From assembly GCF_002844395.1 (NCBI RefSeq), contig NZ_CP025197.1:1984001-2048000 (forward strand): DNA of 64,000 bases. The letters run 5' to 3'. This stretch comes from Acetivibrio saccincola. Its GTDB lineage: Bacteria > Bacillota > Clostridia > Acetivibrionales > Acetivibrionaceae. The translations under genes were made by a program, and so were the position numbers. Shown here piece after piece: positions 16,332-27,495 of the stretch. Within the stretch, counting starts at the first letter, position 1. Every line of letters begins with the position of its first letter. The notes beneath the pieces are model-generated. The model was given only the letters and a program-made list of their open reading frames with translations, was not told the DNA's origin and ran no database searches.

Positions 16332-17865
16332 ATGACATCTTCTATGTATAATAGTATACAACATTTTAATGAATTTGGGGCAAAAAGAATTGAAAAAAAG
16401 ATAAAAAATTTTATTGAAGAAGGAAAAGACTTAGCTGATCTTATTCTTGGTCTGAAAGAAGATTTATTTAAACTTGGACGCGATATACTTAAAGAAGTGC
16501 TTGAAGATATGGATGAATATTTACGTAACTGTGAAATAAGGAAACAGTATTGGGAAATTATAAGAAAAGATAAAACAAGTGCTTGAAGATATGGATGAAT
16601 ATTTACGTAACTGTGAAATAAGGAAACAGTATTGGGAAATTATAAGAAAAGATAAAACAGCTATTTTAACGACATTTGGAACACTAAGTTATAACAGGAC
16701 ATATTTTAAGCATAAGGAAAATGGTAATAGACAACACCTGGTCGACAGGATTGTAGGTGTAGAACCACATGACAGAGTAAGTGCCGATGTTGTAATTAAT
16801 GCAATAGAAGAAGCAGCTGACAGCAGCTACAGAAAGGCAGGAGAAAAGGCGACATATATTGATGAAATCAGCAAACAAGCTGTGATGAATAAAATACATA
16901 ATATTGAAATAGTTGAGCCTGAAATAAAAGTAGATAAAAAGAGAAAAGTAAAAATATTGTATGTTGAGGCAGACGAGGATCATGTAGCATTACAACAAAA
17001 AAGCACATTAAGACAGAATGAGAAGGGCAAGAGAAATACAATTATGCCAAAACTTGTATATGTGCATGAGGGAATTGACTTTGAAAAAAGTAATAAGAAG
17101 AGAAAAGTATTAAAGAATGTTCGATATTTTGGGGGTGTGTATAGTAATTCAGAAAATTTGTGGCTTGAAGTATCGGAATACATATATAAACAATATGACG
17201 TTGATTTTTTAGAGACGGTGTATATATCAGGAGATGGGGCGTCATGGATAAGGCAAGGAGTTAACTGGCTTTCAAAAAGTAAATTTGTACTTGATAGATA
17301 TCATCTTCAAAAATATGTAAGAGTTGCAACCACACATTTAAATGATGAAGCAATAAGCCAAGATTTACAGGACGCATTGAATTTATCTGATAAAAAAAAG
17401 CTAACAAAGGTTTTTAAAAAGATAATCGAAAAGACAGGCGATAATGAAAGTAAAATAAAGGCTATAAAAAGTGCAAAGCGATATATTTTAAATAATTGGG
17501 ATGGTATAGAAATAAGGTCAAACACAAGAATAGTGGGTTGTAGTGCTGAAGGTCATGTGAGTCATGTATTTTCATCCCGTTTAAGTTCAAGACCTAAAGG
17601 CTGGTCGAGAAAAGGTGTAGAAAAGATGTCAAAGCTGATAATATACAAGAAGAATGGCGGTAAGGTATATGACATAGTTATGGCACAAAAACAAAAAAAG
17701 TTAGCAGCTAGTAGGCAAGAAATTCAGGAAAAATTAATTAAGGAATTAAAGAAGTCATCAAACAGGTATGAGAGTGTATGGAATAGTAATTTAACTGTTA
17801 TTCATAAGGGGTGTAAAACTGGTTTATATAAAGAATTAAGGCGTATTATAGGTATATGCGGATAG
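16332..17865 (+). pseudogene. ISLre2 transposase, frameshifted by a tandem duplication
   Basis: The N-terminal part (16332-16586) and the C-terminal part (16579-17865) are in different frames because an 82-bp segment is repeated (16497-16578 and 16579-16660). Ignoring one repeat gives a transposase of about 480 residues, normal for the family. The C-terminal part keeps the DDE-type motifs: YVEADEDHVALQ, YISGDGASWIRQG, FVLDRYHLQKYV, and a late CSAEGHVSHVFSSRLSSRP segment. The start may be the ATG at 16344 rather than 16332; both follow an AGAAAGG site. It is non-functional unless ribosomes shift frame. Confidence 0.88.
16497..16660 (+). repeat. 82-bp perfect tandem duplication inside the transposase gene
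   Basis: Two adjacent copies of 82 bp, each starting GTGCTTGAAGATATGG and ending GATAAAACA, with no obvious differences. Because 82 is not a multiple of three, the downstream frame shifts. The remnant older copy shows this segment only once. Confidence 0.93.
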
Positions 17866-18975: not shown

Positions 18976-19104
18976 ATTTAATATTTTTTATATTGCCGCA
19001 TTAAAAATTGAAAAAATTATAAAAAAAATATTTCATTAGATATTTTTTCTGTTATACTGTTAATGATGACAATAAAAAAGATATTTAAGTAAGGGGATAT
19101 GATT

Positions 19105-20451
19105 ATGAAGAGGAAAAACATAATTATTATTGGCGCAGCCGGCCGGGATTTTCATAATTTCAACATGTGCTACCGTGACAATGAACTCTATAATGTGGTA
19201 GCCTTTACAGCAGCACAAATACCGGATATTGATGATAGAAAGTATCCTGCAGAATTAGCAGGCAGCTTATATCCTGACGGAATACCCATTTATTCACAAG
19301 ACAGATTGCCAGAATTAATAAAAGAGCTGGATGTGGACGAATGTGTCTTTGCTTACAGTGATGTAAGCTACCAAACTATAATGAATATATCCGCTATCGT
19401 CAACTCTGCAGGAGCGGACTTTACACTCCTTGGACCTAAAAACACAGCACTAAAAAGTACAAAACCGGTAATATCAGTTTGTGCTGTTCGTACAGGTTCA
19501 GGAAAAAGCCAGACTTCCAGAAAGATAATTGAACTTTTAATGGAAAACAATCTTAAAGTTGTTGCTGTAAGACACCCTATGCCTTATGGTGACTTGGTGG
19601 CACAAAAAGTACAGCGCTTTGCTACAATTGAAGATTTAAAGAAACATAAATGTACCATTGAAGAAATGGAAGAATACGAACCCCATGTAATACGTGGAAA
19701 CATTATATACGCCGGTGTTGATTATGAAGCTATACTCCGCAGTGCAGAAAATGATCCCGATGGCTGCGATGTGATTTTATGGGATGGTGGCAACAATGAT
19801 TTCTCATTCTACCATGCAGACTTAACTGTAACAATAGTGGATCCTCACCGCCCAGGTCATGAGCTAAGTTATTATCCGGGAGAAGTTTGCTTAAGGATGG
19901 CGGATGTAGCAGTTATAAATAAAATAGACAGTGCCAGCAAAGAAGGAATAGATATAGTGGAAGCAAACATAAAGAAAGTTAATCCTAAAGCTCAAATTAT
20001 TAAAGCTGACTCAAAAATAACAGTGGACAAGCCTGATATAATTAAAGGCAAGAGGGTTTTAGTTGTAGAAGACGGCCCAACTTTAACCCATGGTGAAATG
20101 AAAATAGGTGCCGGAACAGTTGCTGCCGAAAGAATCGGAGCGGCAGAATTAGTGGACCCACGTCCATACACTGTCGGAAAACTAAAAGAAACCTTCAACA
20201 TCTATCCAAATATTGGAAGACTCTTGCCTGCCATGGGTTATGGTGAGCAACAACTGAAAGACCTGGAGGAAACAATAAACAAAACCGATTGTGATGCTGT
20301 TATTATAGGCACTCCTATAGACCTTTCCAGGGTTATTCATATAAATAAACCATATACCCGTGTACATTATGAATTGGATGAAGTTACCAAACCAAATCTT
20401 AATGACGTTATAGAAAAATTTATTAAAGATCACAATTTAGACAAAAAATAA
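19105..20451 (+). CDS. Predicted GTPase, cyclic 2,3-diphosphoglycerate synthetase-like
   Basis: About 448 residues from the ATG at 19105, which has AAGGGG 8 nt upstream; an in-frame ATG at 19099 is too close to that site. It has an N-terminal Rossmann-like part (IIIIGAAGRDFHNFN), a P-loop SVCAVRTGSGKSQTSRKI near residue 130, DVILWDGGNNDFSFY near 220, and VINKIDSA near 270, fitting the COG2403 predicted GTPase family related to archaeal cPGS. Its bacterial role is not established. It is a single gene with its own terminator at 20506-20532. Confidence 0.8.
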   Translation: MKRKNIIIIGAAGRDFHNFNMCYRDNELYNVVAFTAAQIPDIDDRKYPAELAGSLYPDGIPIYSQDRLPELIKELDVDECVFAYSDVSYQTIMNISAIVNSAGADFTLLGPKNTALKSTKPVISVCAVRTGSGKSQTSRKIIELLMENNLKVVAVRHPMPYGDLVAQKVQRFATIEDLKKHKCTIEEMEEYEPHVIRGNIIYAGVDYEAILRSAENDPDGCDVILWDGGNNDFSFYHADLTVTIVDPHRPGHELSYYPGEVCLRMADVAVINKIDSASKEGIDIVEANIKKVNPKAQIIKADSKITVDKPDIIKGKRVLVVEDGPTLTHGEMKIGAGTVAAERIGAAELVDPRPYTVGKLKETFNIYPNIGRLLPAMGYGEQQLKDLEETINKTDCDAVIIGTPIDLSRVIHINKPYTRVHYELDEVTKPNLNDVIEKFIKDHNLDKK

Positions 20452-20532: not shown

Positions 20533-20638
20533 ATTAAGGTTTATACTTTATGGTTCTTTATTTGTATTGATCTTTTTTGGTTCTCTTTTTTTAAGTATTA
20601 TCTATTGACTTTTTCTTTGGATCTGTCTTTTCTTCTGC

Positions 20639-22060
20639 CTATATCTCTTCTTCTTTATCCTTTGACTTTTCCTTTGAACCTGATTTTTCTTCTGATTGTG
20701 CTTCTTCTTTATCCTTTTCTTTTTCCTTTGGATCTGTCTTTTCTTCTACTTCTGTCTCTTCTCCTTCACCCTTTTCTTTTTCCTTTGAATCTGTCTTTTC
20801 TTCTGCTCCTGGCTCTTCTTCTTTACCCTTTTCTTTTTCCTTTGGATCTGTCTTTTCTTCTGCTCCTGGCTCTTCTCCTTTTCCCCTTTCTTTTTCCTTT
20901 GGATCTGTCTTTTCTTCTACTCCTGGTTCTTCTCCTTTTCCCTTTTCTTTTTCCTTTGGACCTGTCTTTTCTTCTGCTCCTGGTTCTTCTTCTTTACCCT
21001 TTTCTTTTTCCTTTGGATCTGCCTTTCCTTCCGGTTCTGTCTCATCTTTTTCCTTTACTTTTTCCTTTGGACCTGCCTTTTCTTCCGGTTCTGTTTTTTC
21101 TTTATCATTATTCTTTGGTTTTGGTAATGGTCTTTCTTCTACTTTATCCTTTTTTTCTGAATCTAATTTTTCTTGATGCTTGTCCTTTGCTTCTACTACC
21201 GATTTTGGATCTTTTTCCTCCTTTTTTAGATGTGGTTTTGGTTTTAGCGAATCTTTTTTCTCAGGTTTTAGAGCAGGTTTTTTAACCTTTTTCACATCAT
21301 AAACAACACCCACATCGTCAATTTTAACCTTCTCTAAAGTTTCCCCGATACTCTTGGTTTTTATCTCTTCAATATCAAGATCAACCTTTTGTTCTTTAGC
21401 CTTCTCATAGATAATAGTCCTGCCTATAGATGTTTTGTTTGCATCTGCCAATCTTTTGTAGTCATAAGAAACACCCACTACTTTTGACTGTGCATCTTCA
21501 CTAATACTGTCTTCAACAGCATTCTTACAAATATCTATCAACTTACTAAACTTTTGGGACTCTTTTTTGGTTTTGGCATGGGGTTTGTTTTTTCCCTCTT
21601 TTAAACATGCCGATATTAACACAGTTGACTCTCTTAAATTGAATTTTTCAATTACTTCTCTTATGGCAACATCTATATATTTATCTTTCAACTCTGATTC
21701 TTTTAATAATTCATTTGCACCATCATTAAAGTAATTAACTTTTCGTACTTTATTATTTTTATCCAGTTCAAATTCTATACTGGTATCAGAATCTATTGTG
21801 ACATATGCATATGCCCCATAACTATTAAATGAATTGAAAAAAATAAACATAATTATAAATACTGCAGCAAGCCCTGCAACAATTCCAGATGCAAAATTAA
21901 TTTTACTCCTTTTATACACAATCTCTTTTTCATTAAAAGAAATTTCCAGACCTGCATACATGCCTGGTTGTTTCCTTATAGAAACAATTTTACAATCACT
22001 GGTCATTATAATAGCCAAATTATTTTTAATTTTTAAAATAGTCCCCTTTTTATTTGACAT
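20639..22060 (-). CDS. rsgI: RsgI-type anti-sigma factor with a charged repeat ectodomain
   Basis: 473 residues. Residues 1-50 match the cytoplasmic RsgI N-domain (KGTILKIKNNLAIIMTSDC), which holds SigI. A membrane helix follows at about 56-78, then the conserved extracellular domain (AYAYVTIDSDTSIEFELDKN, about 83-240). Residues about 255-473 are K/E/P-rich and include five or more 19-residue repeats such as GKGEEPGAEEKTDPKEKEK. Other cellulosomal RsgI proteins end in a glycan-binding module; none is seen here. The usual DINPS cleavage site reads DSDTS. Past the TAG stop the frame carries on with AEEKTDPK, so the stop may be recent. It lies 6 nt downstream of sigI. Confidence 0.88.
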   Translation of the reverse strand: MSNKKGTILKIKNNLAIIMTSDCKIVSIRKQPGMYAGLEISFNEKEIVYKRSKINFASGIVAGLAAVFIIMFIFFNSFNSYGAYAYVTIDSDTSIEFELDKNNKVRKVNYFNDGANELLKESELKDKYIDVAIREVIEKFNLRESTVLISACLKEGKNKPHAKTKKESQKFSKLIDICKNAVEDSISEDAQSKVVGVSYDYKRLADANKTSIGRTIIYEKAKEQKVDLDIEEIKTKSIGETLEKVKIDDVGVVYDVKKVKKPALKPEKKDSLKPKPHLKKEEKDPKSVVEAKDKHQEKLDSEKKDKVEERPLPKPKNNDKEKTEPEEKAGPKEKVKEKDETEPEGKADPKEKEKGKEEEPGAEEKTGPKEKEKGKGEEPGVEEKTDPKEKERGKGEEPGAEEKTDPKEKEKGKEEEPGAEEKTDSKEKEKGEGEETEVEEKTDPKEKEKDKEEAQSEEKSGSKEKSKDKEEEI

Positions 22061-22066
22061 AATATT

Positions 22067-22879
22067 TCACCGTCCTATAGTATCATATATATATTTTTTT
22101 AACACTTCAAGTTCACTTTTAAGTACAAAAACCATAGCAATAATAAATTTTCTGTTTCTTTCAAGAGTCCTGCGGCATAGTTTAACACGCTCTGTCAACT
22201 CTTTGTACGGAAGAGTTTTTTTTGTTGCAAATTTTTCATATAAAGATTTGTCCTCTATAATAAGATTCGCTATATTAAGGCAAGAACATATGGTATCACG
22301 ATGTTTAGGAGAACATTTAATTAAGTCCTCAAGTTTTACTTTATATTCACACATTTTTAACTCTAAATTTTTAATTTCTTCTTTAAAATCAAAATCACTG
22401 CTGTAATCTGCCCCTTTATCATGTAAGTACATTTCTTCAAAGCTATTAGACTCGTATTCATTGAAACATGAAAATGGTATCGTAGCATTGTTTCTTTTCG
22501 TACTCCTTAAATAATCTATAAGCCGCCTTCTTATTACCTGTTTTGAAAAGCTGACAAACTTAGTTTTTCTATTTAAATCATAGGCTTCAATAGCTTCGTT
22601 AAAGGCAATTAAGGCAATACTATATTCATCACATTGTTCTAAATCATCTTTTTGCCCCACCATTTGATAAACACATTTCAAAATAAAGGGTTTAAAATCA
22701 TCAATGAATTTATTTCTAAGCACAACGTCTCCATCTTTAATTTTTTTTATAATTTCTAAAAAAGAATCTTTCTCGTATCCTAATATATTGCGTGGTTTAA
22801 AACTTATCAATAAATATTCCCTCCCTATATCAGGGTATTCGAATAACATCTTTATTTTTATTCGGTTAGACTGGTCCAT
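22067..22879 (-). CDS. sigI: SigI-family RNA polymerase sigma factor
   Basis: 270 residues. The sigma region 2 stretch (DEYSIALIAFNEAIEAYDLNRKTKFVSFSKQVIRRRLIDYLRSTKR, about 85-130) is characteristic of SigI, as is the C-terminal LPYKELTERVKLCRRTLERNRKFIIAM segment with its helix-turn-helix. In C. thermocellum, SigI factors switch on cellulosome genes when their RsgI senses polysaccharide. The start shown (22879) has no good ribosome site, and an internal ATG about 11 codons on is possible. The gene is cotranscribed with rsgI and divergent from the coiled-coil protein gene at 23020. Confidence 0.9.
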   Translation of the reverse strand: MDQSNRIKIKMLFEYPDIGREYLLISFKPRNILGYEKDSFLEIIKKIKDGDVVLRNKFIDDFKPFILKCVYQMVGQKDDLEQCDEYSIALIAFNEAIEAYDLNRKTKFVSFSKQVIRRRLIDYLRSTKRNNATIPFSCFNEYESNSFEEMYLHDKGADYSSDFDFKEEIKNLELKMCEYKVKLEDLIKCSPKHRDTICSCLNIANLIIEDKSLYEKFATKKTLPYKELTERVKLCRRTLERNRKFIIAMVFVLKSELEVLKKYIYDTIGR

Positions 22880-23019
22880 TAGGTAAGTCTATATAGATTG
22901 TACTAAAATATTTTAAAATTATAAATCTAAAAAATTTTATAAACAGTCCGAACAAAAAAATTTTCCATTGCCGAAGGACTTGGACGAAAGAAAAAAAATT
23001 AAGAAAAGGAGAATGCAAA

Positions 23020-24381
23020 ATGAAGAAAGTTGTAGGGTTTTTAGCAACAGGAACATTGGTATTTTCACTATCAGCAGGTATTTTTCTAAACAGTACCTTT
23101 GCTTCAAAGGATGTTCAAAACAAATCAATTGGTGAAATTATTCACCCTAAGTATGTTGAATCTATTGTTGAAAAGAAAGAAGTAGCAGAAATTAAAGCAA
23201 AATATGAAGCAGAAATTGCCGAAATTGAAGAAAGTCTAAAAGCTATTCGCAATGGAATTAAAAATTTAAGAAAAGTAAATCCAGTAGATGAAGAAGCTGT
23301 TGAAGAGCTTAAAGAGCAAGAAAAAGCACTACATGACAAATTAAAAGCTAAAAAAGATGAATTACACAATGTTATTGAAAAAGTAAAAATGGTTGTTAAA
23401 TATGGTGAGGAAGCTGCTAATGAAATTGAAGCTTTAAAAGCTGGTTTTAAAGAAGAAGAAAAGGCTATTAAAGAACAAATTGAAGCTATTAAAGCACAAA
23501 TCCGTGAATTAAAAGATGCTGAAAACGTTGATGAAGAAGCAATTGCAGAGCTTAAAGAAGAAGAAAAAGCACTACATGATGAATTAAAAGAAAAAAGAGA
23601 TGCTGTAAATAAGAAAATTGAAAGAATTAAAAAAGTTGCAAAATATGGTGAAGACGCTGTTAACGAAATTGAAGCTTTAAAAGCTGATTTTAAAGAAGAA
23701 GAAGAGGCTATTAAAGAACAAATTGAAGCTATTAAAGCACAAATCCGTGAATTAAAAGATGCTGAAAACGTTGATGAAGAAGCAATTGCAGAGCTTAAAG
23801 AAGAAGAAAAAGCACTACATGATGAATTAAAAGAAAAAAGAGATGCAATGAATAAGAAAATTGAAAGAATAAAATTAGTTGGAGAGTTTGGCGAAGAAGC
23901 TGCTAATGAAATTGAAGCTTTAAAAGCTGATTTTAAAGAAGAAGAAGAGGCTATTAAAGAACAAATTGAAGCTATTAAAGCACAAATCCGTGAATTAAAA
24001 GATGCTGAAAACGTTGATGAAGAAGCAATTGCAGAGCTTAAAGAAGAAGAAAAAGCACTACACGATGAGTTAAAAGAAAAAAGAGATGAATTACATAATA
24101 AAATTGATAGAATTAAACTAGTTGCAAAATACGGTGAAGACGTTATAGCAGAAATAGAAGAAGCATACGTTGCATTTGGCGAAAAAATTGCTGAATTAGA
24201 AGAACAGAAAGAAAAAGTAAAAGAAGAATTAAAAGCATTAAGAGAAAATAAACCTGTTGACAAAGATGCTGAAAAAGAACTAAAAGAAACAGAAAAAAGT
24301 TTAAATGATCAGATTAAAGCTGAAAAAGAAGCTTTAGAGGATAAAATTGAGGACATTATTTACGCTGCAATAATTAAATAA
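23020..24381 (+). CDS. Secreted coiled-coil repeat protein
   Basis: 453 residues. A signal peptide (about 1-28, ending NSTFAS) is followed by an almost wholly alpha-helical, Lys/Glu/Ala-rich chain. Three near-identical 81-residue units begin EIEALKA(G/D)FKEEE and include NVDEEAIAELKEEEKALHDE; diverged half-units flank them on both sides. Heptad-like spacing suggests long coiled coils. No anchor, dockerin, SLH or catalytic motif is seen. An AAGGAG site precedes the ATG. It is divergent from sigI-rsgI, with only 140 nt between, so it may be a target of that sigma factor; this is inference. Function unknown. Confidence 0.8.
   Translation: MKKVVGFLATGTLVFSLSAGIFLNSTFASKDVQNKSIGEIIHPKYVESIVEKKEVAEIKAKYEAEIAEIEESLKAIRNGIKNLRKVNPVDEEAVEELKEQEKALHDKLKAKKDELHNVIEKVKMVVKYGEEAANEIEALKAGFKEEEKAIKEQIEAIKAQIRELKDAENVDEEAIAELKEEEKALHDELKEKRDAVNKKIERIKKVAKYGEDAVNEIEALKADFKEEEEAIKEQIEAIKAQIRELKDAENVDEEAIAELKEEEKALHDELKEKRDAMNKKIERIKLVGEFGEEAANEIEALKADFKEEEEAIKEQIEAIKAQIRELKDAENVDEEAIAELKEEEKALHDELKEKRDELHNKIDRIKLVAKYGEDVIAEIEEAYVAFGEKIAELEEQKEKVKEELKALRENKPVDKDAEKELKETEKSLNDQIKAEKEALEDKIEDIIYAAIIK
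23422..24150 (+). repeat. Three tandem 243-bp repeats within the coiled-coil gene
   Basis: Units start at 23422, 23665 and 23908, each beginning GAAATTGAAGCTTTAAAAGC, with an exact 243-bp period that keeps the reading frame. They are far more alike at the DNA level than needed for protein similarity, which points to recent duplication or gene conversion. Confidence 0.93.
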
Positions 24382-24667: not shown

Positions 24668-26269
24668 GTGAAAAATTGCAAAACTAATAAGCTTGTATTT
24701 CTTTTAGTAAGTGTACTGATTTTTTCCGCTTTTTATTTACCAGGTTCTGTATTTGCTAATACAGAGAAAAAAATCAGCTATAATACTTTAGGAAGCTCCA
24801 TTTTTTATGGTGATTTAAACGGGGATGAAAATGTAGATACAATGGATTATGTATTGTTACAAAGATATGCATTAGGCGTAATTAATAAATTTCCTGTAGG
24901 CAATACGAAAGCAGCTGATTTAAACGGGGATGATGAAATAAACTCATTAGATGCCACACTCATGAGTAGATATATACTAGGTGTTATAAAAGAATTCCCT
25001 GTTTCAACCGGAGCTGTTTACGCATCCATTGATACCAGTACAAGACATCAGGTAATTGAAGGTTTTGGAGCATCCATTGCTTATTATCAAAATTGGCTTA
25101 TAGACCATCCAAATAAAGCAGAAATATATGATGTTATATTCAATGAACTTGGTCTTAGTGTACTTCGCCTCAATAACTGGTACATAACATATGAAAATGA
25201 ACCTTCTTTTGACGACCATGCAAAAGAAATCGTCAGTGAAGCTAAGAAATCCGTGGGTGAAGAATTAAAAATAATGATGTCTTCATGGACTCCCCCTGCT
25301 TATTTAAAATCAAATAATTCCGCTGCAGGCGGAACACTAAAAAAAGAAAATGGTGAATTTGTATATGATAAATTTGCCAACTATTGGTACGAATCATTAA
25401 AGGAATACGAAAAAATCGGTGTGGTTCCTGATTATATCAGTATACAAAATGAGCCTGATATAGAAACCGGATATGAGTCCTGTATCTTTGACAAGGACGA
25501 AAACGGAAACAATGCAGTTTATGCAAAAGCTCTTGAGGCAGTCTATAAAAAACTCAATAGCAGCATGGATAACCCTCCTAAAATATTAGGTCCTGAAGTT
25601 CTTGGCATTGGATATAATAATTTTGACGGATATATGAATCTTATAAATACCGACTATTTAGACGGCTTAGCTTTCCACCTATATCATGGAGGAGATGAAA
25701 ACCAGCCTGATTCATTTAATCAAGAATTAATGAAAATTAAAAACAAATATCCGAATATACCTAAATATCAGACAGAATTTTACCGTGGTGATGCATTTAA
25801 TACTGCATGGATTATTCACAACTGTCTTGTTAACGGTGATGTATCCATGTACTTGTACTGGGATCTCATTTGGGGTGAAAGCGGAGGTCTTGTGACAATA
25901 GAATTCCCTTGGGATAAAGGACAGTGGACAACACCAGGTGGATATATTATAGACGACAAATACTATGTTTTAAAACAGTACGCTAAGTTTATAAGACCTG
26001 GATATACCCGTGTTGACGCATCGGCAAATTCAGATGACATAAAGATATCCGCCTATATTTCACCGGACAATAAGTCTATATCTGTTGTTTTATTAAATAC
26101 ATCATCAAATTCCCAAACAGTAGCACTGGACTTTAATAACTTTACAGCATCCAGTTCTGAAATATACAGAACAAGTGAAAACGAAAAAGCAGAATTTATT
26201 GGAAGCTTAAATGGTAACAACACTCTTGTTTTACCTGCAAAATCCATTGCAACTGTAATAATAAAATAG
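24668..26269 (+). CDS. Cellulosomal GH30 xylanase with N-terminal dockerin
   Basis: 533 residues from a GTG start with AAGGAGG upstream. A signal peptide (about 1-30) is followed by a type I dockerin placed N-terminally (about 47-115: DLNGDENVDTMDYVLLQRYALG and DLNGDDEINSLDATLMSRYILG), then a GH30 domain (about 120-435) and its beta-sandwich (435-533). The acid/base glutamate is in SIQNEPD and the nucleophile in YQTEFY. GH30 enzymes of this sort cut xylan, often next to glucuronic acid branches. The dockerin plugs the enzyme into the cellulosome. It is controlled by the box at 24519 and ended by the hairpin at 26285. Confidence 0.9.
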   Translation: MKNCKTNKLVFLLVSVLIFSAFYLPGSVFANTEKKISYNTLGSSIFYGDLNGDENVDTMDYVLLQRYALGVINKFPVGNTKAADLNGDDEINSLDATLMSRYILGVIKEFPVSTGAVYASIDTSTRHQVIEGFGASIAYYQNWLIDHPNKAEIYDVIFNELGLSVLRLNNWYITYENEPSFDDHAKEIVSEAKKSVGEELKIMMSSWTPPAYLKSNNSAAGGTLKKENGEFVYDKFANYWYESLKEYEKIGVVPDYISIQNEPDIETGYESCIFDKDENGNNAVYAKALEAVYKKLNSSMDNPPKILGPEVLGIGYNNFDGYMNLINTDYLDGLAFHLYHGGDENQPDSFNQELMKIKNKYPNIPKYQTEFYRGDAFNTAWIIHNCLVNGDVSMYLYWDLIWGESGGLVTIEFPWDKGQWTTPGGYIIDDKYYVLKQYAKFIRPGYTRVDASANSDDIKISAYISPDNKSISVVLLNTSSNSQTVALDFNNFTASSSEIYRTSENEKAEFIGSLNGNNTLVLPAKSIATVIIK

Positions 26270-26427: not shown

Positions 26428-27495
26428 ATGACAAGTGAAGACATTGCAAGAATAGCCGGAGTATCCAGAAGCACTGTATCCCGTGTAATCAATAACTATC
26501 CTGATATACCTGAAGCAACAAGGGAAAAGGTTTTAAAAGCAATAAGGGAATACAATTATTATCCAAATGCATCAGCCAGGAGACTTGCTGGAAGTAAAAG
26601 CTCCACACTAGGGCTTTTTATAGTTGATATTAAAGATAATGAAAAGCCACACCATGTTATTCAAAATGATGAGGCACTGCTATATGACAACACTTTCTTT
26701 GCCCCATTTACCAATGCATTTATTGATCAGGCCAATAAAATGCATTATTACGTTTTGGTATCCACCATTTTCTCTTCTAGTGAGTTGTGGAAAATACAAA
26801 GTTCTTTCTGTGAAAAAAGAATAGATGCCGGTGTAGTTATTGGAAGTGGAAAAGAAGATTATAAAAAAATACTTGACCTTATGAAAAAGGACTTTATTTT
26901 AGCTGCTGTGGATGTTGAAACAGAAAACTCCAATAAAGATAAGGCCATATACATAAATACAAACAATTACCAATCAGCTTACGATATAGCAAAACATTTT
27001 ATTGAACTTGGACATAAAAATATTGGTATAGTGACAGGGGATTTGGAAAAACTCTCTGGCAAAACCAGGTTTGAAGGTTTTAAACAAGCCTTAAAGGATT
27101 ATAATATAGATTTGCCGGATAATTTTATCGGGTATGGTGATTTTACAGAACCTAGCGGATACCAGGCCATGAAAAGTATTTTACAATCTCCAAAACTTCC
27201 AACAGCAGTGTTTGTGTGCAACGATACCATGGCAATAGGAGCATATAAAGCTATTGAGGAGTCAAATTTAAAAATTCCTGATGACATCTCAATAATTGGT
27301 TTTGATAATATTAAAATATCAGAATATATGTCTCCCCCACTTACCACTGTTAATATTTGTTTGTCTGAAATTGCAAAAACTGCTACTAGATTACTTATAG
27401 AATCAGTTGAAAAGGGTGCTATAGAACCTGTAGAAAAAATAATAGATGTAAAAATGGTAAAAAGAAAATCCTGCAGGAGTGTATTATCTGATTAA
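26428..27495 (+). CDS. LacI-family transcriptional regulator, GlyR-like
   Basis: 355 residues. The N-terminal helix-turn-helix and hinge (TSEDIARIAGVSRSTVSRVINNYPDIPEATREKVLKAI...YYPNASARRLA) is followed by a periplasmic-binding-like effector domain (about 60-345, with GHKNIGIVTGD, AVFVCNDTMAIGAYKAI and SIIGFDN). It lies convergent to licB, separated by a shared terminator. The licB promoter carries a palindrome very like the published GlyR3 site of C. thermocellum, so a role as a glucan-responsive licB repressor is likely. The sugar effector is not known from the sequence. Confidence 0.9.
   Translation: MTSEDIARIAGVSRSTVSRVINNYPDIPEATREKVLKAIREYNYYPNASARRLAGSKSSTLGLFIVDIKDNEKPHHVIQNDEALLYDNTFFAPFTNAFIDQANKMHYYVLVSTIFSSSELWKIQSSFCEKRIDAGVVIGSGKEDYKKILDLMKKDFILAAVDVETENSNKDKAIYINTNNYQSAYDIAKHFIELGHKNIGIVTGDLEKLSGKTRFEGFKQALKDYNIDLPDNFIGYGDFTEPSGYQAMKSILQSPKLPTAVFVCNDTMAIGAYKAIEESNLKIPDDISIIGFDNIKISEYMSPPLTTVNICLSEIAKTATRLLIESVEKGAIEPVEKIIDVKMVKRKSCRSVLSD

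Follow-up and report, generated by a model that had tools for sequence, protein, structure and literature searches.

The window, a stretch of 64,000 nucleotides from the genome of Acetivibrio saccincola, a cellulose degrader related to Clostridium thermocellum, contains a sigma factor gene of the sigI type, sigI8, and directly after it, at a spacing of 6 nt, the gene for a membrane anti-sigma factor, rsgI8 (Table 1). A gene for a secreted helical-repeat protein is divergently oriented to this pair, and two predicted SigI8 promoters lie in between. The anti-sigma factor consists of an RsgI_N domain (42.9 bits in Pfam, cut-off 25), a membrane helix recognized by eye, an RsgI_M domain directly behind it (56.4 bits, cut-off 25.3) and a low-complexity tail. 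Solved periplasmic domains of RsgI proteins were matched by sequence (8her, E 2.2e-11; 8u9o, E 1.9e-8; 8hdj, E 3.3e-7), and the RsgI_M fold of RsgI8 appears to be intact. A structure model for residues 1–262 (mean pLDDT 38, 3 sequences) was not used for any claim. An earlier sequence-only reading of this DNA had described the ectodomain as devoid of a glycan-binding module. Indeed, Pfam shows RsgI_N and RsgI_M alone at E ≤ 0.001, with no CBM, PA14 or glycosidase module. The genome of the window (3.6 Mb, one contig) has eight copies of RsgI_M, that of RsgI8 included.

Table 1. Features of the sigI8–rsgI8 locus and of the divergent gene (positions within the window).
Feature	Position	Strand	Basis
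rsgI8, membrane anti-sigma factor	20639..22060	-	ORF, 473 aa, ATG start
RsgI_N, cytoplasmic sigma-binding domain, residues 4-43	21932..22051	-	Pfam PF12791, 4.4e-11
Membrane helix, about residues 57-80, XAA motif = LAA	21821..21892	-	by eye
RsgI_M, extracytoplasmic domain, residues 84-220	21401..21811	-	Pfam PF23750, 6.4e-15
Self-cleavage position, residues 91-94: SDTS (xNPS/xNPG in other RsgIs)	21779..21790	-	profile alignment
K/E/P low-complexity tail, residues 250-473, 19-aa repeats	20642..21313	-	TRF and composition
sigI8, 247 aa, TTG start 22810	22067..22810	-	NCBIfam NF006173 SigI, above cut-off
Operon promoter (sigI8-rsgI8), predicted SigI8 type, CCGAATAAAAATAAAGATGTTATTCGAA	22838..22865	-	exact motif; published sigI8 layout
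Predicted SigI8 promoter, divergent, CCGAACAAAAAAATTTTCCATTGCCGAA, 44 nt before the helical-repeat gene	22948..22975	+	exact motif
Secreted helical-repeat protein, 453 aa, 81-aa repeats	23020..24381	+	TRF; signal-peptide-like start by eye

Convergent with rsgI8, a P-loop protein with weak similarity to CobW/HypB is encoded at 19099..20451 (plus strand). Apparently the same gene follows rsgI8 in genome G002 (locus L010), on the opposite strand as judged by eye. Also near the module, at 16579..17865 (plus strand), is the gene for a UPF0236 protein (PF06782), which we take to be a type of transposase. On the other side, the module is adjoined by the gene for a dockerin-bearing GH30 xylanase-like enzyme (24668..26269, plus strand), followed by that for a LacI-type regulator (26428–27495).

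For sigI8, the ATG at 22879 was considered as start codon (ORF 22067–22879, minus strand). A gene starting there would contain its own promoter, and the TTG given in Table 1 is the likelier start. The reading from this TTG is conserved: matches start at residues 1–7 in 10 of the 14 genomes of the family, the window's included. In genome G012 no sigI8 match was obtained at E ≤ 1e-70, though rsgI8 is intact there. Incomplete assemblies among the 14 include G012 (87%) and G003 (55%).

The assignment of the pair to sigI8–rsgI8 is based on orthology, on the agreement of promoters and on the IAA motifs of the G013 copy. An RsgI8 orthologue was found in 11 of the 14 family genomes, including that of the window, and is absent from G001, G004 and G011. 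Identity to the 10 other orthologues is 60–82% over residues 1–247, while the next best RsgI reaches 38%. The copy in G013 shares 67% over this range and carries two IAA motifs in its membrane helix, in agreement with the description of RsgI8 in PMC12203970. The sigI8 promoter of G013 agrees in 37 of 38 bases with the published promoter of Clostridium thermocellum sigI8, and that of G012 in 38 of 38 with the published promoter of C. straminisolvens sigI8 (PMC4711584, Table 1). Thus, the window protein and C. thermocellum RsgI8 (Cthe_2974) are orthologues. In a sample at class level, 6 of 391 genomes match RsgI8 at E ≤ 1e-36, and all six belong to the family of the window. Among genome contigs, at least two relatives were retrieved, on contigs of G002 and G003, and the viral contigs searched contained no relative.

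Behind the membrane helix, the window protein reads AYAYVTIDSDTSIEFELD, with VTIDSDTSIE at the site where other RsgIs cleave themselves. In the profile alignment, Asp-Thr (residues 92–93) falls into the column of Asn-Pro, a dipeptide present in 101 of 118 RsgIs from the 14 family genomes. The claim of the sequence-only reading that Asn-Pro is missing from the aligned site is thereby borne out. That reading had also considered an Asn-Pro elsewhere in the domain, and there is none in the whole 473-residue protein. The alignment comprised 119 RsgIs, from which one fragment without the site (L141, in a second frame) was dropped; a match restricted to the amino terminus (G001:C2:105282-105434) and the second pieces of split matches were left out. 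The other seven RsgIs of the window genome all have Asn-Pro, four as NPS and three (L175, L176 and L180) as NPG. The eight non-RsgI8 copies among the nine RsgI matches of G013 likewise all retain it.

The 17 family RsgIs without Asn-Pro are the 11 RsgI8 orthologues and the six members of one sister subfamily (L059, L060, L061, L062, L065 and L067). The dipeptide at the site in the RsgI8 orthologues is DT in five, NT in four and DA in two. An order-wide search (58 genomes) gave 47 RsgI matches outside the family, 41 with Asn-Pro and six without. Two of the latter, L147 (GK) and L148 (KA) from another family, are the proteins among them that are closest to RsgI8. The other four, L197, L198, L202 (NLS) and L214 (NTS), are also from another family of the order.

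We placed these sequences in two trees, which are quick searches without bootstrap and in which L148, L156 and L214 form long branches. In the first (121 rows: the 118 family RsgIs with L147, L148 and L156), one branch sets all 19 rows without Asn-Pro apart, with an SH-aLRT support of 99 when the site columns are excluded, and a single change is also sufficient when they are included. In the second (154 rows; L210, a piece of 139 residues, was left out), the same 19 rows again require one change (SH-aLRT 99), and all 23 rows without Asn-Pro require three. The RsgI8 group itself is on one side of a branch with a support of 84, and of 82 in the second run. Within the family, Asn-Pro was thus lost on one branch, and about three losses account for the order. 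A single loss in the whole order is ruled out by L197, L198, L202 and L214, which are outside the RsgI8 branch. These counts take Asn-Pro as the ancestral state, which is probable from its being the commonest. In the RsgI8 branch the loss is old and fixed, and the non-cleaving type is not a single aberrant protein but a branch that has been conserved.

The tail of the window protein is encoded by a repeat of 57 bp, present in 8.5 copies with 84% matches (20609–21085, TRF), which confirms the 19-residue K/E/P repeats noticed earlier. Its composition is K 0.27, E 0.27 and P 0.09. We regard the plus-strand ORF at 20605..21285, which overlaps the repeats, as an antisense by-product. All 11 RsgI8 orthologues have tails of 106–281 residues rich in K, E, D and P, with repeat units that vary by species, as expected of a disordered region that is maintained by composition rather than by sequence. 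Between species, the tails vary in net charge from -14 to +1, and 9 of the 11 are net acidic. Seven RsgIs from another family of the order (L152–L154 and L156–L159) combine low-complexity tails, as judged by eye, with a retained Asn-Pro. As Bacillus subtilis RsgI also has such a region, a disordered tail alone is not unusual. The lack of both Asn-Pro and a carbohydrate module is common to the RsgI8 orthologues and not particular to the window copy.

The membrane helix carries an XAA motif in 11 of 11 RsgI8 orthologues, and XAA motifs at this place have been tied to recognition by ClpXP (PMC12203970). In the same study, the amino-terminal fragment of C. thermocellum RsgI8 was degraded by ClpXP in vitro. 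An M50 protein resembling site-2 proteases is encoded in the window genome; this is weak evidence, since the family occurs in 14 of 14 control genomes. RsgI8 thus seems to keep the later steps of the pathway and to lack only the first, built-in cut.

To describe the promoters, we used the motif CCGAAYNAAA-N14-CGAA, drawn from the window genome, G002 and published sequences, with the other genomes as test. In the window genome, a search with up to one mismatch gave the two promoters of Table 1 and no other match, both mismatch-free, against 17 for the reversed pattern as control. Across the 14 family genomes, the exact motif has 19 matches, all of them between sigI8 and the divergent gene in the 11 genomes with RsgI8; the reversed pattern has eight. 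The three genomes without RsgI8, which are 99, 100 and 90% complete, contain no exact match. The exact motif misses the operon promoter in G005, G006 and G007, and with a looser pattern both promoters are found in 11 of 11 loci. In another family, locus L161 has both promoters and L160 the divergent one only, about 380 nt before its gene. The two promoters are probably used by SigI8, to judge from their sequence and place. SigI8 may also use looser promoters, which a scan with this motif would miss. No SigI8-type motif (up to one mismatch) precedes the GH30 gene next to the module. A terminator scan (four found, 1.9 expected) adds little.

The gene behind the divergent promoter is present in the same 11 of 14 family genomes and missing from exactly the three that lack RsgI8. 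It follows the promoter in 11 of 11 loci at a distance of 44–189 nt, and G028 and G029 encode related repeat proteins in this position. The genes sigI8, rsgI8 and that of the helical-repeat protein form a conserved three-gene module. In the window, the repeats of the partner gene (243 bp, 3.5 copies, TRF) extend from 23287 to 24140. The structure model of the protein is fairly confident (mean pLDDT 84.2; 90 or above in 251 of 453 residues) and consists of hairpins of helices about 37–42 residues long. Its length varies from 230 to 534 residues among relatives. The shortest form, at L073 in G012, is an ORF of 230 residues plus an additional piece in a different frame, possibly due to errors of the draft assembly.

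The partner protein matched no solved structure by sequence at E ≤ 0.01, and its model gave no Foldseek match at E ≤ 0.001. The best Foldseek candidates, when re-examined, were unrelated long helical proteins with Z scores up to 9.3, which may reflect a merely common arrangement. Matches to SMC, Rad50, EzrA and other Pfam or NCBIfam families were below the curated cut-offs and are regarded as coiled-coil noise. The seven other RsgI genes of the window genome have no neighbour of similar composition to a distance of about 5 kb: the fraction of helix-forming residues is at most 0.67 in the ORFs listed there and 0.82 in the partner, a comparison that holds for this one genome. Dockerin-like genes, recognized by pattern, are near three of these seven RsgI genes. 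A search of the accessible literature, supplementary tables aside, retrieved no description of a SigI8 regulon that includes the helical-repeat gene and no mention of Cthe_2976 or Clo1313_0526, the tags assumed for the helical gene.

The sister subfamily without Asn-Pro ('sub2', six members in the family) falls together with RsgI8 on one side of the tree. Its members, unlike RsgI8, have a helical domain at the end of the ectodomain, and the stretches read contain no SigI8-type motif. The helical domain is similar to the carboxy terminus of the protein encoded just downstream. With a profile of the domain, 5 of 5 downstream proteins matched (E 2.6e-7 to 1.1e-3 at Z = 4000), from five of six loci, L166 not being among them; the composition bias of these matches is high, and we regard the result as a lead. 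Three of the five downstream proteins (loci L162, L163, L164, L165 and L167) begin like a signal peptide, as judged by eye. The profile matched 0 of 13 RsgI8 partners at E ≤ 10. As a lead, the RsgIs of the branch without Asn-Pro may thus go with helical proteins rather than with glycan modules. Two A. cellulolyticus pairs with an unassigned ectodomain are listed as orthologues of Cthe_2974 in PMC3413522, and these probably reflect the two lineages without Asn-Pro.

We propose, with a probability of roughly 0.6, that RsgI8 is an envelope sensor which is released by intramembrane proteolysis without self-cleavage and which governs a tiny private regulon. RsgI8 would hold SigI8 by its cytoplasmic RsgI_N domain, and the charged, disordered tail probably reaches into or through the cell wall. 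By analogy with C. thermocellum RsgI8, for which a lack of self-cleavage is reported, the A. saccincola protein presumably does not cleave itself. An ectodomain that is not pre-cut at Asn-Pro needs another first step for its release, which might be a cut by a protease, or the domain might unfold or be shed when the envelope is stressed. Completing the release would fall to a membrane protease of the RseP type and to cytoplasmic ClpXP, a role assigned to them because the XAA signal of the membrane helix is kept. Once freed, SigI8 would transcribe its own operon and, divergently, the helical-repeat gene, with perhaps few targets besides. As the signal, envelope state or the helical-repeat protein itself is likelier than polysaccharide: the ectodomain has no glycan module, no motif match precedes a cellulase gene, and the promoter is private to the module.

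Along the lines of the sequence-only reading, the tail might itself sense the cell wall by its mechanical state or its charge, which we consider possible but doubtful. Its conservation as a K/E/D/P-rich region in every orthologue despite differing repeat units is in line with this, as is the disordered region of B. subtilis RsgI, postulated to sense wall integrity (PMC10128001). Against it, the partner is not a recognizable wall enzyme, and the net charge of the tail shifts widely between species. Alternatively, the ectodomain may read the secreted helical-repeat protein, or its absence, in a feedback loop. The full co-occurrence of the genes in the 14 family genomes, the shared promoter type and the resemblance of the sister ectodomains to the proteins encoded downstream (5 of 5) speak for such product sensing. 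We nevertheless regard it as unlikely: the RsgI8 tail is a low-complexity region without a helical domain, its length is not correlated with that of the partner (Spearman 0.32, p 0.34, n = 11), and the sister profile suffers from composition bias. Attraction between tail and partner by charge is not favoured either, as the partner is net acidic in 12 of 13 cases and the tail, too, is mostly acidic. A wider version, tentative and as a whole unlikely, would make RsgI8 and the sister subfamily a separate SigI branch, whose ancestor gave up self-cleavage and which monitors a dedicated secreted helical protein instead of polysaccharides, in the case of RsgI8 one produced under its own sigma factor, in a closed envelope feedback with a one-gene regulon and a protease for the first cut.

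Self-cleavage in eukaryotic SEA or GPS domains proceeds by a hydroxyl-driven acyl shift. If RsgI8 still cut itself in this manner, at Asp/Asn-Thr or a nearby Ser, the ordinary pathway would apply. Thr follows Asp or Asn in 9 of 11 orthologues and Ser is next in all 11, but two orthologues have Ala instead, among them that of the C. thermocellum-like G013, and L147 and L148 read GK and KA at this site. As self-cleavage is moreover reported to be lacking in C. thermocellum RsgI8 (PMC12203970), this route is quite improbable. Simple decay, in which a paralogue that no longer signals has lost its site, would agree with the loss of the motif here and in other lineages. It is hardly credible, since three genera have kept the reading frame and the domains as well as the XAA motif, the two promoters and the partner gene, and since the block around the site is itself conserved.

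For an envelope sensor released without self-cleavage, the divergent helical-repeat gene is the single predicted target, and its near-unique promoter could be used as a reporter. The secreted helical-repeat protein is the likely output of RsgI8/SigI8 and perhaps also its input. In the relatives examined, RsgI8 adjoins and probably controls this helical protein rather than enzymes for plant fibres. How the initial signal of RsgI8 arises without self-cleavage has been posed as an open question (PMC12203970), and the predicted one-gene regulon makes it testable. The sequence-only reading had suggested that the pair may sense something other than polysaccharide or be released by another protease. 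This agrees with remarks in PMC12203970 and with the helical-repeat neighbour and its matching promoter. It had, however, presented the protein as a lone oddity, while it is in fact of the known RsgI8 type.

That an RsgI lacks the cleavage site is already published for the orthologue: PMC12203970 describes C. thermocellum RsgI8 as having no self-cleavage motif, no self-cleavage and no distinct carbohydrate-binding domain. What looks new is the age of the loss of Asn-Pro in this branch and the conserved three-gene module with its predicted one-gene regulon. C. thermocellum RsgI8/SigI8 (Cthe_2974/2975; Clo1313_0524/0525) shares with the window pair the promoter layout, the divergent partner and the XAA motif, and its RsgI8 likewise has no Asn-Pro and no glycan module described. 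The window protein and the G013 copy differ in the site (DT and DA, respectively) and in the repeat unit and length of the tail. The glycan-sensing, self-cleaving RsgI1–7 and RsgI9 of C. thermocellum have the RsgI_M domain and the RsgI architecture in common with RsgI8. Their carboxy-terminal modules are mostly CBM3, CBM42, PA14, GH10 or peptidase-like, the rest being unassigned or NTF2-like (PMC4711584, Table 1). B. subtilis RsgI, compared here as described and not by sequence, has a disordered extracellular region and has been suggested as an analogue of RsgI8 (PMC12203970), and the SigI of this species raises mreBH and lytE (PMC10128001). Unlike RsgI8, it has a self-cleavage site, and closing this site leaves signalling partly on (cited in PMC12203970).
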